Shown here: positions 167-17,394 of the stretch, in pieces
Layout: the number at the start of each line of letters is the position of its first letter
Numbering within the stretch: position 1 is the stretch's first letter
Origin: a virus
Virus record (IMG/VR): IMGVR_UViG_3300050120_000238
Span: 1-26,024 of that record
DNA: 26,024 bases
Direction: 5' to 3' (one strand)
Made by a program: the position numbers and the translations under genes
The notes under the pieces: generated by a model
Told to the model about the DNA's origin: nothing
What the model saw: only the letters and a program-made list of their open reading frames with translations
The model's database searches: none

Positions 167-1501
167 TTAATCTTCCAAGAAATCGGTATAACCGCGACTT
201 ACCAAATAAAATCCGGTTGTTGAACCATCCAACGCCTGAGTACATCGAAGAGAAACCTGCGCAACCGTATTTGATAACGCTATAAAAGTGGAAGCGACAC
301 TGTATCCGGCCCCAATACCAAGAATGGGATAATCACCACCCGCTAATGCACCACTACTTACAGAATCCCCTCCAAAAATACTAAATCCAGAACCCTGGCC
401 CATGGCGGTTACCAACGCTGTGCCGTGAACTAAGCATCTAACACCAGTTGGACTTGACACATTAGCTATTTCGTTTGTGTTAGCGGGTATGCTTGCAAGT
501 CCATAATTTGATATACCCAGTAAATATTCTGTTAATGGGCCACGCTGTAGATATGGATAAATGTTATTTGAGACATCGGTTCTAAAAAATCCAACACGAC
601 GCCATTCGGTATAACCAGTCGGTCTATTACTCGCAACCGGATTAGTATCAAACCCAATATCTGTCACAGACGTTGCATCATTTCTGATGACAAATATATG
701 GTAGCCACTACTGGCTGTTCTAGCACCAGTAAATAATCCATTGTTTCCTGTTCCTGCCGTCCATGCGCCAGAAGTTTGAACAGTCTTAGTTATGACCGAA
801 CTTAGATAAATATCACAATTATCGGCATTAGAACGCCATGAAGCAGCATTTACCTTAATCTGGGTAACGGAAACCCATTCAGTGTGTCCACCACTATTAG
901 GTCGATATTTAGTCGGAAGATTATTTGCAGCATATCTACCCAAATAAAATTTCATTCGACCAAAATAAGGCGAAGCGTCAGGTACATAGATATCCCCAAC
1001 GTTGGTAAGGGGAATAGACGCGGCGGCAAACGATGGAACTAAATGGCTTTCGACCGAAGCAAAGGCTGCTTGAACATTCGTATTGGCAGTTAAAACTGAA
1101 CCACCTGTGGCCGTTACAGCAACATCACTGGATGCACCGCTTGTTGCCACGGGTTTTAATGTTGCGCTTAAAGTTGAAACGGCTGTAGAAATTGCGGTTG
1201 CCTGGGCCGTGGAAACAGGTTTATTAGCATCCGATGTATTCGTAACATTACCCAGACCGATCATGGTCGAAGTGATACCTGCTACGGTTCCGGTAAAGGT
1301 AGGCGAATTGAGATTAGCCTTTAGGGCTATTGCAGCGGCCTGGGCGGTCGAAACTGGCTTATTAATATCAGAAGTATTATCTACATTGCCTAGGCCGATT
1401 CCAGCGGGAGTAGGAGCAACGGCAGATGCTAGAATTTGGTCCAAAGATTGACTCGTTGGTCTGTGCCAAACCTGTGCCGTCGAAAGTATGACTAGGGACA
1501 T
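167..1501 (-). CDS. Tail-fibre-like structural protein with GLGNV repeats
   Basis: A 444-residue protein, probably a host-recognition fibre. The N-terminal ~120 residues contain two copies of a module beginning IGLGNV(D/T)NTSD and continuing NKPVSTAQA, separated by a segment with TFTGTVAGIT. Such repeats are typical of trimeric phage tail fibres and collar-type domains. The remaining ~300 residues are rich in Ser, Thr, Gly and Asn with no recognised enzyme motif, as expected for a beta-rich shaft and receptor-binding tip. There is no S74 chaperone motif at the C-terminus, so folding help may come from the small gene directly downstream (1-164). The start is ATG at 1501 with a weak AGAG Shine-Dalgarno. 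A CTAAATA late-promoter-like box lies 24 nt upstream. The repeat is shared with the fibres at 12875 and 15835. Which part of the virion it belongs to is not determinable here. Confidence 0.8.
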   Translation of the reverse strand: MSLVILSTAQVWHRPTSQSLDQILASAVAPTPAGIGLGNVDNTSDINKPVSTAQAAAIALKANLNSPTFTGTVAGITSTMIGLGNVTNTSDANKPVSTAQATAISTAVSTLSATLKPVATSGASSDVAVTATGGSVLTANTNVQAAFASVESHLVPSFAAASIPLTNVGDIYVPDASPYFGRMKFYLGRYAANNLPTKYRPNSGGHTEWVSVTQIKVNAASWRSNADNCDIYLSSVITKTVQTSGAWTAGTGNNGLFTGARTASSGYHIFVIRNDATSVTDIGFDTNPVASNRPTGYTEWRRVGFFRTDVSNNIYPYLQRGPLTEYLLGISNYGLASIPANTNEIANVSSPTGVRCLVHGTALVTAMGQGSGFSIFGGDSVSSGALAGGDYPILGIGAGYSVASTFIALSNTVAQVSLRCTQALDGSTTGFYLVSRGYTDFLED

Positions 1502-8059: not shown

Positions 8060-8129
8060 AGGGATAGATTCTTATTATTTTCGATTAGATTTACAGCTTA
8101 CTTAGATTTATTGTAAATTCTATTTTTAT

Positions 8130-8142
8130 TGTAATTATTACA
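8130..8142. repeat. 13-bp perfect palindrome
   Basis: TGTAAT-T-ATTACA, a symmetrical operator-like site about 70 bp upstream of the minus-strand membrane-protein gene. No binding protein is known. Confidence 0.4.
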
Positions 8143-8193
8143 TTTAACCATAGAAATATCTCTTTTATCCTCGTGGTTTTGACCTCTTTTAAT

Positions 8194-8201
8194 TATAAAT
8201 A
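8194..8201 (+). promoter_or_regulatory. Exact T4 late-promoter octamer
   Basis: TATAAATA on the plus strand, the exact T4 late consensus. The next plus-strand gene (8791) is nearly 600 bp away, so if active it would make a long leader or a separate non-coding transcript. In such AT-rich DNA a chance match is quite possible. Confidence 0.3.
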
Positions 8202-8228
8202 TAATCAATTTAATTAAGATTTAAAGGG

Positions 8229-8276
8229 ATTAATTTAAAAATAAGATCATAAAAAGAAGAATTAATTTAGAAATAA
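8229..8276. repeat. Pair of 16-bp direct repeats with 32-bp period
   Basis: ATTAATTTAAAAATAA (8229-8244) and ATTAATTTAGAAATAA (8261-8276) differ at one base and are spaced 32 bp start to start, about three helical turns, so both would face the same side of the DNA. They may be protein-binding iterons. Confidence 0.45.
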
Positions 8277-8558
8277 AAGAAGAAAAGTTAAAACCTATTC
8301 TTTAATTCAAAGAGAAAACTGTCTGGATTCTCTAATTCATTCTCTTTACCACTACCCATTGCTGTCTGGGAGATTATCCTTTAAAAGGAAATCTGGATTA
8401 CTAGATTGCTCTAACCCTTTATTGCTGCTCTGTCAGTCTTAGGGTTCAGGGGTACTTACTGCTTGATTTGGCGACCACCTGTTATCCTTGTTTCTCTATT
8501 TTTGATTCTCATCCTCATGAGAAACCTTGATTTCAATGAACCAGCAAACCCAAATCGT

Positions 8559-8675
8559 TCATTTATCAAGCGTGTTAGAGGATGGACTATCCCGCATTGG
8601 GTAGTCTTTTGGGAATAAATCTTTCAATTCCCACCACTGATCGATGTCGTGAATCAGAGTCACACGTTGCACCAC
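8559..8675 (-). pseudogene. Possible small gene or gene remnant in the island
   Basis: A 38-codon minus-strand frame starting at tandem GTG codons directly after an in-frame TAA. It reads QRVTLIHDIDQWWELKDLFP and on to PMRDSPSSNTLDK. The sequence has ordinary coding character (amphipathic, Trp/Asp/Lys-rich). There is no good Shine-Dalgarno. An overlapping frame on the same strand (8587-8715, 42 codons) starts with ATG in the recurring TTGAAAAATG element and has a hydrophobic start (MIFTQFIVILYTVSG), raising the possibility of a frameshifted gene. Neither was recognised. Confidence 0.25.
8585..8610 (+). terminator. Hairpin with short T-run inside the island
   Basis: GACTA(T)CCC, loop GCATT, GGGTAGTC, then TTTT: an 8-bp stem with one bulged T. 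It is a weak intrinsic-terminator candidate on the plus strand, followed at once by a second stem (GGGAAT 8611-8616 / ATTCCC 8627-8632). Confidence 0.35.
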
Positions 8676-8713
8676 TTACTGTATATAGTATCACAATAAA
8701 TTGGGTAAAAATC

Positions 8714-8724
8714 ATTTTTCAATT
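8714..8724 (-). repeat. Copy of the recurring AATTGAAAAAT element
   Basis: Reads AATTGAAAAAT on the minus strand and is followed by GATTTTT, as at the gp45 promoter (7255-7265). There is no good -10 at the expected spacing here, so promoter activity is uncertain. Confidence 0.4.
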
Positions 8725-8747
8725 GATTTTGTTTTTGAATTGAGTGG

Positions 8748-8754
8748 ATAAGTA
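8748..8754 (+). promoter_or_regulatory. Putative late promoter for the baseplate block
   Basis: ATAAGTA in the context GGATAAGTAAG, 36 nt before the gp6-like ATG. The same GCTAAGTAAG context occurs 38 nt before the gene at 18629, and both differ by one base from the CTAAATA boxes. Confidence 0.4.
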
Positions 8755-8790
8755 AGAAAAGAATAAGAATATCAAGGGCATAGACCACAA

Positions 8791-12601: not shown

Positions 12602-12871
12602 ATGAATTATCAGCAACCGATGATTGCTCCTTATGGGTTTTATACCATTGGACCAGTAACATTTAATTTCACATCTTTCCTAACGATACCGTCTGGAACG
12701 ACTGATGAAAGGGCGGATGGCATAGATGACACTATCGCCCTTTTGCGTTTTAACACAGAAATTGATGGATTGGAAGTTAAAAACTCCACGGGTTGGACGC
12801 CACTTCTAACTGATAACAATAATACAAATAATGATGACGCGTTAATCATGGCTCTGGTTCTGGGAAGCTAA
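12602..12871 (+). CDS. Small fibre-locus protein
   Basis: An 89-residue protein beginning MNYQQPMIAPYGFYTIGPVT, with an acidic, Asn-rich end. The section DTIALLRFNTEIDGLEVKNSTGWTPL resembles the 'xALRYNTxxxxxExxxxxxWxxL' segment found in many small phage tail proteins and fibre N-termini, where it packs as a beta-hairpin domain. It is 3 nt upstream of the first large fibre gene. It may be a fibre-attachment or hinge protein. The family assignment is tentative. Confidence 0.6.
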   Translation: MNYQQPMIAPYGFYTIGPVTFNFTSFLTIPSGTTDERADGIDDTIALLRFNTEIDGLEVKNSTGWTPLLTDNNNTNNDDALIMALVLGS

Positions 12872-14658: not shown

Positions 14659-14666
14659 CTAAATAT
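14659..14666 (+). promoter_or_regulatory. Putative late promoter before the glycosyltransferase
   Basis: CTAAATAT, 73 nt before the glycosyltransferase ATG. A TTAAATA at 14694-14700, 38 nt before the ATG, is an alternative. If the second is used, the transcript would start at or just after the GGAG ribosome-binding site, so the two choices have different consequences for translation. Confidence 0.4.
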
Positions 14667-14702
14667 AGAGGAATACCCTTCCTCGAAAAACAGTTAAATA
14701 AT

Positions 14703-14741
14703 GGAGATTCCAAGGGACATAATCCCTTGGGAAACTAAATG
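14703..14741 (+). promoter_or_regulatory. Hairpin-spaced ribosome-binding site of the glycosyltransferase gene
   Basis: GGAG (14703-14706) lies 32 nt from the ATG, far too distant for a normal site. Between them is a perfect 8-bp stem (CCAAGGGA 14710-14717, loop CATAA, TCCCTTGG 14723-14730), extendable by T-G and T-A pairs to 14708-14732. With the hairpin folded, GGAG is about 7 nt from the ATG. This matches the structure known for T4 gene 38. No other Shine-Dalgarno precedes the start. Confidence 0.6.
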
Positions 14742-15827
14742 AGTTCACATAAATACCCTCGCGTTCTATTCGTTTTGAAAAAACAAGGCATCTACAATGG
14801 AAATGATTATTCCACTACGCCTGTTTATAGTAGTGGTTTAGGTAATAGTGCTAGATTTGTAGTTGATATGCTAAAGGATATTGGTGTACCGACTGATGTT
14901 GCCTATGTTATTGATAATAATGGCATTCATAAACAAATCGTGGAATATAAGGCTGATGTAGTAATCATCGAAGCATTCTGGGTTGTTCCAGAAAAATTCG
15001 ATGAATTGAAAAAAGCATGCCCAAAGGTAACGTTTATCATTCGTAATCACTCAGAAACCCCTTTCCTCGCTCAAGAAGGAATGGCTTTTGGTTGGATTAT
15101 GAAGTACTTAAATAAATCAAATGTGTTGTTAGGGTGCAATTCGACTCGGATGTTGGAAGACACAAGGTTCCTGGCTTTTGCTCAAGACCCTACGCTTTCG
15201 GATAGAGAAATTGAAAGAAAAACTGTTTTACTGCCGAACTATTACCCAACTACTGATGCAAAGCGTGCTTCTGCAATCCATCATTCAGAATTCCTAGATA
15301 TTAGTTGTTTTGGTGCTGTACGTCCATTGAAAAATCATATGATTCAAGCCATGGCGGCAATGAAAGCAGCTACGAGAATGGGTAAACGTCTGCGATTCCA
15401 TATTAATGGTGGTCGAGTAGAACAAAAAGGCGAACCGATTCTGAAGAATCTGAAGGAACTTTTTGCTGCTTTCCCACAACATGAATTGATTAATCATGGT
15501 TGGTTGGCACATGATGAGTTTAAAGAACTGGCTTCAACGATGGATATTGCCATGCAAGTTTCATTGTCTGAAACTTTCAATATCGTAGCGGCTGACACGG
15601 TGACCCTGGGTATTCCTACCATCACGTCTCCGGAAGTACGTTGGGCAAGTGGATGTTTTCAAGCGAATCCTACCGACTCCAATGAAATCGCCAAGATGGT
15701 TGAAAAAGCATATAACTTTAGACGCTCATGGCCTAGTTACAATCCGAGTTTAAAAGGATTGAAAAGCTTTAATAAAATGTCGATCAAAGAATGGTCTGAT
15801 GTTTTGTTAAAATTGAAAGGACGATAA
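14739..15827 (+). CDS. GT-B-fold glycosyltransferase (GT4-like) in the tail-fibre locus
   Basis: A 362-residue enzyme candidate that would transfer a sugar from a nucleotide-sugar donor. The N-terminal half opens with PRVLFVLKKQGIYNGNDY and SSGLGNSARFVVDML, the glycine-rich acceptor-side loop of GT-B enzymes. The C-terminal half has FGAVRPLKNHMIQAM (~191-205), then HGWLAHDEFKELASTMDIAM and SLSETFNIVAADTVTLGIP. The E278-x7-D286 pair stands where GT4 enzymes have E-x7-E, with Asp for the second Glu. There are no membrane spans, so it is cytoplasmic. It sits between two fibre genes, so plausible acceptors are the fibres themselves; phage DNA or host surface sugars are alternatives. Translation seems to depend on an intervening hairpin (14710-14730). 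The fold assignment is good; the donor and acceptor are unknown. Confidence 0.75.
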   Translation: MSSHKYPRVLFVLKKQGIYNGNDYSTTPVYSSGLGNSARFVVDMLKDIGVPTDVAYVIDNNGIHKQIVEYKADVVIIEAFWVVPEKFDELKKACPKVTFIIRNHSETPFLAQEGMAFGWIMKYLNKSNVLLGCNSTRMLEDTRFLAFAQDPTLSDREIERKTVLLPNYYPTTDAKRASAIHHSEFLDISCFGAVRPLKNHMIQAMAAMKAATRMGKRLRFHINGGRVEQKGEPILKNLKELFAAFPQHELINHGWLAHDEFKELASTMDIAMQVSLSETFNIVAADTVTLGIPTITSPEVRWASGCFQANPTDSNEIAKMVEKAYNFRRSWPSYNPSLKGLKSFNKMSIKEWSDVLLKLKGR

Positions 15828-15834
15828 GAATAAA

Positions 15835-17394
15835 ATGGCATCAAAAACCCTTAATACAATTATTTCACCAACGGATACAAACCGTACTCTAGTCTATACG
15901 GCTCCGACTACGGCTACTTCCGCTATCGTGTTTGGCGGAACATTGACCAATACCGATGCAATCACCAAGACGGTAAAAACCGCTACGGTTGAAATTCTGG
16001 TATCTGCCGGTGTTTATAAGCGTGTTGGGGGTCAAGTATCTGTTCCTTATGCTATTGGTATTGGTCTTCCAAAGATTACCCTGAACCCAGGTCAAAGCAT
16101 TTATGTAACTATTTCACAGGCAAACACAGTTGATTGTCTGTTTAATATTATGGAAATCTACTCAAATATTGCTTTGGGTGGAACGGGTTCGACGGTTCTT
16201 GAAGCCTTAAATGACCACATTGCGAATCTGAATAATCCCCATGGAACTACGGCTACTCAAATCGGTCTAGGTTCAGTTAACAATACCTCTGATGCAAATA
16301 AGCCTGTCTCCGTCATTCAACAGGCCGCGTTGGATTTGAAAGCCAGTTTGACGGGTGCCACATTTACCGGAACAGTCAATGGTATCACCAAAACGATGGT
16401 TGGTCTAGCCAGTGTAGATAATACCGCTGATACTGCTAAACCTGTTTCAACCGCACAACAAAATGCGTTGAATTTAAAATTGAATTTGTCTGGTGGAACC
16501 ATGAGTGGTGGTTTGACTATTTCAAGCAATACGACCACGAATTCTCCCGCACTTATACTTGGAAATACTACCTCATCTGCTTATATTCAGATGCAGGGGA
16601 CTAATCTATATTTCATTAACGCTGCTAATAATGCTGTTAATGCATCAATTACCGATGCAGGGGCTGTTTCTTTTCCGAGAGCAAGACCTACATGGGCAGG
16701 GTTAACCCCATGGGATAGTGGCAATTTTAACCCGGCCAACTATGCGCCTCTCAGTACTTTTAATGCTGATATAACCAGTCTTCAAAGTCAAATAACGGGC
16801 AATTACAATGCTTATGCGGCTGAAGTCGGCTTTCTTCAGAGTGAAATCAACAGTGTAAGTAGCACGGCCACGACCGCCTATAATGTCGCGGTTGGTCGAA
16901 TGGTTCCCGATTCTGTCAGTACGGGTGGTTGGGCCAGTGGAAATTCCCAAGCGCCATACTTCAGTAACGGCACGGCTGTTGGAATGATTCAGCAACGATA
17001 TCTAGGTGGTATCTATGACGTGTTCTTTGATGGAGCATTAAAAATTACATCGGGCGGAACACAATATTTCTTCCCGATTAACGGATCGGATGCAAGACTG
17101 AAAGAAAACATTGTGGATTCAACAATATCTGCACTGGATGTTGTCAATAAAATTAAATTTAAACAGTTCAATTTTAAAGAAAGCAGTGTTTTTGATCATA
17201 CTAAGGTTCATAAAGTTGGAGTTATAGCCCAGGAACTTCGGGAAGTAGAACCGACTTTTGTCATACCAAGTGATAGTTATTATCAACTTGATCTGCTTCC
17301 TATGTTGAATCATGCCCTAAAGGCGATTCAGGAACTATCTGCCCAGGTAGAAGATTTAAAGACTCAGGTAGCGGCCTTAAATCCAAAAGTTTAA
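15835..17394 (+). CDS. Tail fibre with C-terminal S74 intramolecular chaperone
   Basis: A 519-residue fibre. Residues 1-~110 are a paralogue of the N-terminus of the fibre at 12875. Two GLGNV-type modules follow: IGLGSVNNTSDANKPVS and MVGLASVDNTADTAKPVS, with TFTGTVNGIT between. The C-terminal ~100 residues are a peptidase S74 / endosialidase-type chaperone domain that directs trimer folding and then cleaves itself off. It starts at S418-D419 in GSDARLKENI, continues IKFKQFNFKES and KVGVIAQELREVEPTFV, and ends in a leucine-rich coiled coil (LKAIQELSAQVEDLKTQVAAL). The mature fibre would therefore end near residue 418. It begins 7 nt after the glycosyltransferase stop, with AAAGGA 13 nt before the ATG. 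A bidirectional terminator follows. Confidence 0.87.
   Translation: MASKTLNTIISPTDTNRTLVYTAPTTATSAIVFGGTLTNTDAITKTVKTATVEILVSAGVYKRVGGQVSVPYAIGIGLPKITLNPGQSIYVTISQANTVDCLFNIMEIYSNIALGGTGSTVLEALNDHIANLNNPHGTTATQIGLGSVNNTSDANKPVSVIQQAALDLKASLTGATFTGTVNGITKTMVGLASVDNTADTAKPVSTAQQNALNLKLNLSGGTMSGGLTISSNTTTNSPALILGNTTSSAYIQMQGTNLYFINAANNAVNASITDAGAVSFPRARPTWAGLTPWDSGNFNPANYAPLSTFNADITSLQSQITGNYNAYAAEVGFLQSEINSVSSTATTAYNVAVGRMVPDSVSTGGWASGNSQAPYFSNGTAVGMIQQRYLGGIYDVFFDGALKITSGGTQYFFPINGSDARLKENIVDSTISALDVVNKIKFKQFNFKESSVFDHTKVHKVGVIAQELREVEPTFVIPSDSYYQLDLLPMLNHALKAIQELSAQVEDLKTQVAALNPKV

Follow-up and report, generated by a model that had tools for sequence, protein, structure and literature searches.

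The window analysed here, a 26-kb (26,024-nucleotide) IMG/VR-type viral record, derives from an uncultured T4-superfamily myovirus. Its + strand carries gp6-, gp13- and gp14-like structural genes, and its opposite strand those for the clamp and the clamp loader. Judged by gp6, Pseudomonas phage Cygsa01 (43%) and Delftia phage PhiW-14 (38%) come closest among named phages. When gp6, the 10559 protein and the complete glycosyltransferase were used in tblastn and pattern scans, they found no close phage relatives, and distant matches at most. A glycosyltransferase gene lies between two tail-fibre genes, the downstream one at 15835-17394 (Table 1). Its product belongs to a large phage family, reached solely via the conserved motif WVVPEKF, with 544 relatives in one IMG/VR scan, the best of which (L216) shows 60% identity; some relatives sit in Acetobacter/Gluconobacter genomes. 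The ATG at 14739 is backed as the start codon by homologues sharing the N-terminus (MSH..PRVLFVLK in L128 and L204), and L216 starts four codons later. Rfam and tRNA scans of the whole window gave no match, including at 8060-8790, where 732 nt between divergent genes hold a 9-bp hairpin (8584-8607) and no long listed open reading frame.

The leader of the glycosyltransferase gene has an unusual anatomy, much of which the original prediction described accurately. The gap between the distal GGAG and the ATG is exactly 32 nt, and 14710-14717 and 14723-14730 form eight Watson-Crick pairs, to which U709-G731 and U708-A732 add to give the 10-pair stem. Once folded, the 25-nt hairpin leaves 7 nt to the ATG, again as proposed. 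The prediction was silent on the GGGA within the 3' arm, on the CTAAATA box and on a mini-ORF that lacks a Shine-Dalgarno (SD) sequence and possibly encodes a leader peptide, or else is there by chance. The sequence TGGGA likewise precedes the window genes at 12602, 12875 and 3831.

Table 1. Features at and around the glycosyltransferase start (window coordinates, except for the homologues in the last row)
Feature	Position	Strand	Remarks
Small hairpin GAGGAA/TTCCTC	14668..14684	+	predicted start 14671 would cut its 5' arm
Late-promoter-like box CTAAATA	14659..14665	+	73 nt from ATG; predicted +1 = 14671
Late-promoter-like box TTAAATA	14694..14700	+	38 nt from ATG; predicted +1 = 14706; TAAATA so near: 6.8% by chance
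Mini-ORF MEIPRDIIPWETK, 13 codons	14701..14742	+	stop overlaps glycosyltransferase start (ATGA); 4.2% by chance
GGAG, distal SD candidate	14703..14706	+	sequence; anti-SD duplex -6.4 kcal/mol
Hairpin, 10-bp stem 14708-14717/14723-14732, loop CAUAA	14708..14732	+	fold -14.9 kcal/mol, z -3.1; such stem in 13/3000 shuffles
GGGA in hairpin 3' arm, proximal SD candidate, hidden if folded	14729..14732	+	6 nt from ATG; duplex -4.2 kcal/mol
Glycosyltransferase gene	14739..15827	+	362 aa, GT group 1/GT4-like; weak Pfam PF13692/PF00534, slightly under cut-off
Gene e-like glycosyltransferase homologues	L249 1100-1145; L231 1000-1040; L152 10955-10995 (L159 same); L218; L221; L244; L105/L100		stem arms flank or overlap late TAAATA; 3' arm reaches start codon

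The hairpin is real and non-random. The fold energy in Table 1 is the minimum free energy of 14703-14741 (39 nt, GGAG to AUG), a stability equalled in 2 of 200 shuffles, and a stem of at least 10 pairs with at most one G-U arose in 0.4% of the shuffles of the 100-nt intergenic region. The longer interval 14690-14760 (71 nt), whose folding had been proposed as a check, gave a z of just -1.2 because the flanks dilute the hairpin signal. A composite scan of 1857 genes for a strong SD tetramer, a hairpin of at least 7 pairs and an effective spacing of 4-14 returned 5 matches where 1.35 were expected for stems of at least 7 bp: the window, with the longest stem (10 bp), T4 gene 25 as the positive control, and three 7-bp cases, two of which are near-duplicates. 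T4 gene 38 was missed for the sole reason that stem and SD overlap there. Few genes have a hairpin that ends 14 nt or less from the start (14 of 1679, several of the ORFs being doubtful), and T4 gene 38 and the window are alike in this respect. That a strong tetramer should adjoin a hairpin is expected at about 7% by chance, a rough estimate that counts against bridging.

Two other roles for the stem were considered and rejected. It is not an intrinsic terminator, as no U-run follows 14708-14732 on either strand. Nor is it an RNA thermometer, and the temperature dependence that the original prediction had allowed for is contradicted: in the model the stem is about 90-99% paired across 10 to 55 C, with a mean pair probability of 0.99 at 10 C and 0.90 at 55 C.

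The phage uses SD sequences: averaged over 21 other starts in the window, the 20 nt that precede the start codon pair with the anti-SD at -4.2 kcal/mol, compared with -1.0 to -1.6 further upstream. The distal GGAG, at -6.4 kcal/mol, pairs more strongly than this mean, and the in-stem GGGA, at -4.2 kcal/mol, equals it. For an RNA from 14671, the opening cost is 4.9 kcal/mol in the bridged (split) mode versus 11.5 kcal/mol for freeing the in-arm GGGA together with the start region. In a simple equilibrium model, the bridged site is favoured over the in-arm GGGA by about 9 kcal/mol if the RNA has the GGAG, a figure whose main weakness is that the model omits a steric term for a hairpin on the ribosomal platform. 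In longer RNAs, the model predicts weak pairing of the GGAG with other segments, which counts against bridging.

Which of these elements a message contains is a matter of where it begins. T4 late promoters have TATAAATA at -13 to -6, and the late promoter of phage Aeh1 has CTAAATA from -12 (PMC1524935). Two boxes of this kind lie upstream of the glycosyltransferase gene, which is expected by chance at 1.9%. The box at 14694 fits the usual distance, as TAAATA distances to starts peak at 20-39 nt over many loci, and the box at 14659 fits the sequence form used elsewhere in the window, where CTAAATA also precedes 1577, 12602, 19198 and the 167-1501(-) gene by 25-33 nt. The 14694 box is probably a late promoter. 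A predicted RNA from 14706 loses the GGAG and keeps the hairpin, whose stem begins after 2 nt, and one from 14671 has both. No + strand terminator was found in the intergenic region, and read-through RNA from the fibre gene would also carry both. Whether most messages include the GGAG would depend on the promoter box used, 14659 providing it and 14694 not. An RNA starting past the GGAG from TTAAATA, which the original prediction regarded as fatal to itself, is a live possibility given the position of this box within the 20-39 nt peak and its predicted +1 at 14706. The late timing that it had suggested is likely, with the promoter boxes rather than the hairpin as its source.

Natural split-SD sites that depend on a hairpin are few, T4 genes 38 and 25 being the textbook cases, and the gene 25 structure is conserved solely in T-even phages. 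The hairpin shortens the SD-AUG gap from 22 to 5 nt at gene 38 and from 27 to 11 nt at gene 25 (PMC3014915). In the window, the linear gap of 32 nt is too long, a stable hairpin lies wholly between SD and AUG, and the effective spacing of 7 nt falls within the range of about 5-11 nt; a nearer SD candidate, the GGGA at 14729-14732, is present but in the stem, at a cost of about 11.5 kcal/mol to free. The window shares with gene 38 the order in which an SD, a short strong hairpin and a brief A/U-rich stretch lead up to the AUG, with an effective spacing of 5 in T4 and 7 here, and side by side the two leaders have a near-identical layout, CATAAGGAG-[hairpin]-TCTAAATATG versus AATGGAGA-[hairpin]-AACTAAATG in T4. 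There are also differences. The gene 38 hairpin, at the junction of genes 37 and 38, has a UUCG loop and no late box beside it, whereas in the window the gene is unrelated, the stem is longer and has an SD-like GGGA in its 3' arm, and late boxes stand immediately upstream. At the 26-25 junction, as in the window, a hairpin shortens an extended SD-AUG gap; however, gene 25 lies within an operon with an overlapping upstream gene, and its case is proven by reporter and probing, while that of the window is a prediction. The split ribosome-binding site of E. coli thrS illustrates that the ribosome accommodates a folded hairpin within its binding region (PMC3936740), although thrS is a large regulated operator with another layout.

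On these grounds, the window may well be a new example of the split-SD type of T4 genes 38 and 25, with a probability of roughly 0.45; this value and the weights worded for the alternatives below are judgements and were not computed. Within the region where glycosyltransferase translation is initiated, the hairpin would act as a structural spacer. In messages containing 14703-14706, whether read-through from the upstream fibre gene or late RNA with a start near 14671, the 30S subunit would pair with the GGAG and the hairpin of 25 nt would remain folded, bringing the effective distance to the AUG down to 7 nt. By analogy with T4, we infer that the ribosome would tolerate the hairpin, and the GGAG-containing messages would be the productive ones. 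The gene 38-like start originally proposed is partly supported: it agrees with the anatomy and, for RNA that has the GGAG, with the energy model, but its need for the hairpin is conjectural, as the hairpin of L216 is weak and the 14694 box may drop the GGAG.

A stable hairpin bridging a distal SD and the AUG was absent from all of the other approximately 130 distinct homologues examined. Ahead of its ATG, the leader of L216 has GGGAG followed by a 5-bp hairpin (-2.9), an order shared with the window (leader similarity p of about 0.05), and it also has AGGA close to the ATG, which counts against bridging. With no stable counterpart among the homologues and a weak one in L216, the strong hairpin appears to be a recent feature of the window lineage. 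An apparent compensatory change from A-U to U-A between the window and L216 was dropped, because the aligned columns pair in a different register.

Inhibitory helices occur at the starts of T4 genes e, soc, 49 and I-TevI, and the window resembles them in that the helix abuts the start, SD-like bases lie in its 3' arm and a late promoter is near. The hairpin might accordingly hide the real SD, the GGGA 6 nt from the ATG, and keep glycosyltransferase translation low as at e, soc and 49, the GGAG being incidental. This we consider unlikely, although the GGGA has the average pairing strength for the phage and the family itself is rich in such structures. Stems of at least 9 pairs with the 3' arm against the start codon were found in 8 of 131 distinct glycosyltransferase leaders, one of them the window (1.05 expected), versus 23 of 1246 other genes (10.7 expected; Fisher p 0.006), and among genes with a late box in 6 of 47 glycosyltransferases versus 2 of 189 others (p 0.001), p-values that are somewhat optimistic because the stem definition was fixed after a few examples had been viewed. 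In the clearest cases, L249 (14 bp), L231 (10 bp) and L152 (10 bp), the SD is buried in the 3' arm, which in L231 carries GGAG.

At T4 gene e, the read-through RNA is closed and the late RNA is open (PMC3014915). In seven of the eight helix-bearing glycosyltransferase leaders, the late box lies within the loop, in the 5' arm or next to that arm, and in these relatives a gene e-like arrangement would likewise leave read-through RNA closed and late RNA open. The exception is the window, which has the start-codon position in common with these helices and a different promoter placement. The window helix does pair an SD-like sequence; however, whereas the gene e late promoter removes the 5' arm, the predicted +1 here is 14706 or 14671 and the 5' arm begins at 14708, and a gene e-type assignment was rejected. 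The late RNA of the seven relatives would lose the 5' arm and that predicted for the window keeps the whole hairpin, so there is no visible step that would release a hidden SD, and a stronger SD, GGAG, stands exactly where bridging requires it. A wider proposal, that the family repeatedly evolved start-codon RNA structures tying translation to promoter choice, with gene e-like helices in some lineages and here two late promoters in tandem, the upstream one alone giving a GGAG before the bridging hairpin, strikes us as rather doubtful.

Alternatively, the hairpin could form the 5' end of a late mRNA from the 14694 box and guard it from decay for the benefit of the fibre gene at 15835-17394, the glycosyltransferase being translated weakly or without an SD. 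The predicted closeness of the stem to the 5' end (2 nt), the usual late-promoter position of the box, a similar promoter-hairpin order at PhiW-14 30736 and the relatives that start without an SD are all consistent with this. It is nevertheless improbable, since the box reads TTAAATA whereas the other pre-gene boxes of the phage read CTAAATA, and a hairpin directly behind a late box was found in 2 of 223 cases, leaving such an order unsupported as a general design. Least probable of all is a hairpin with no or some other function (chance, a terminator remnant, or melting by ribosomes on the mini-ORF with termination-reinitiation): an IMG/VR search for the exact stem pattern gave one match, a terminator in the unrelated contig L215 (0.6 chance matches expected, by estimate), the hairpin is not conserved and the mini-ORF overlaps the glycosyltransferase start, but neither strand has a U-run after the stem, such a stem is rare in shuffles, and the mini-ORF, which lacks an SD, turns up in 4% of them.

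Several other hairpins were seen at phage starts and promoters. In PhiW-14, near-identical hairpins GGGCGGGCC..GGTCCGCCC occur on the minus strand at about 46805 and upstream of gene 17 (L003 32785-32812), one after ATAAATA and the other after a TAAGT variant, as a duplicated promoter-hairpin cassette. At PhiW-14 gene 2 (L084 12848), a gene e-like candidate, the arms of a TCCTCCATAA/TTATGGAGGA helix enclose the late box ATAAATA, and the 3' arm includes the SD GGAGG. The start at L171 3937 is preceded by ATAAGG, a strong hairpin AGGGGAGG..CCTCCCCT and ATCAT before the ATG, so that the SD is within the hairpin or split by it. In addition, the glycosyltransferase homologue of L278 has a hairpin, TCCTTTAGTGAATCTACATTAAGGGA, at -32 to -6, positioned as in the window and without a clear distal SD.

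Finally, the excess of start-codon helices across the family suggests that the timing or amount of glycosyltransferase is under selection, and these leaders provide a ready comparative set. If the bridged SD proves true, the window would hold a third natural split-SD site, in a distant phage of the T4 superfamily and before an unrelated gene, which would mean that this design arises independently.
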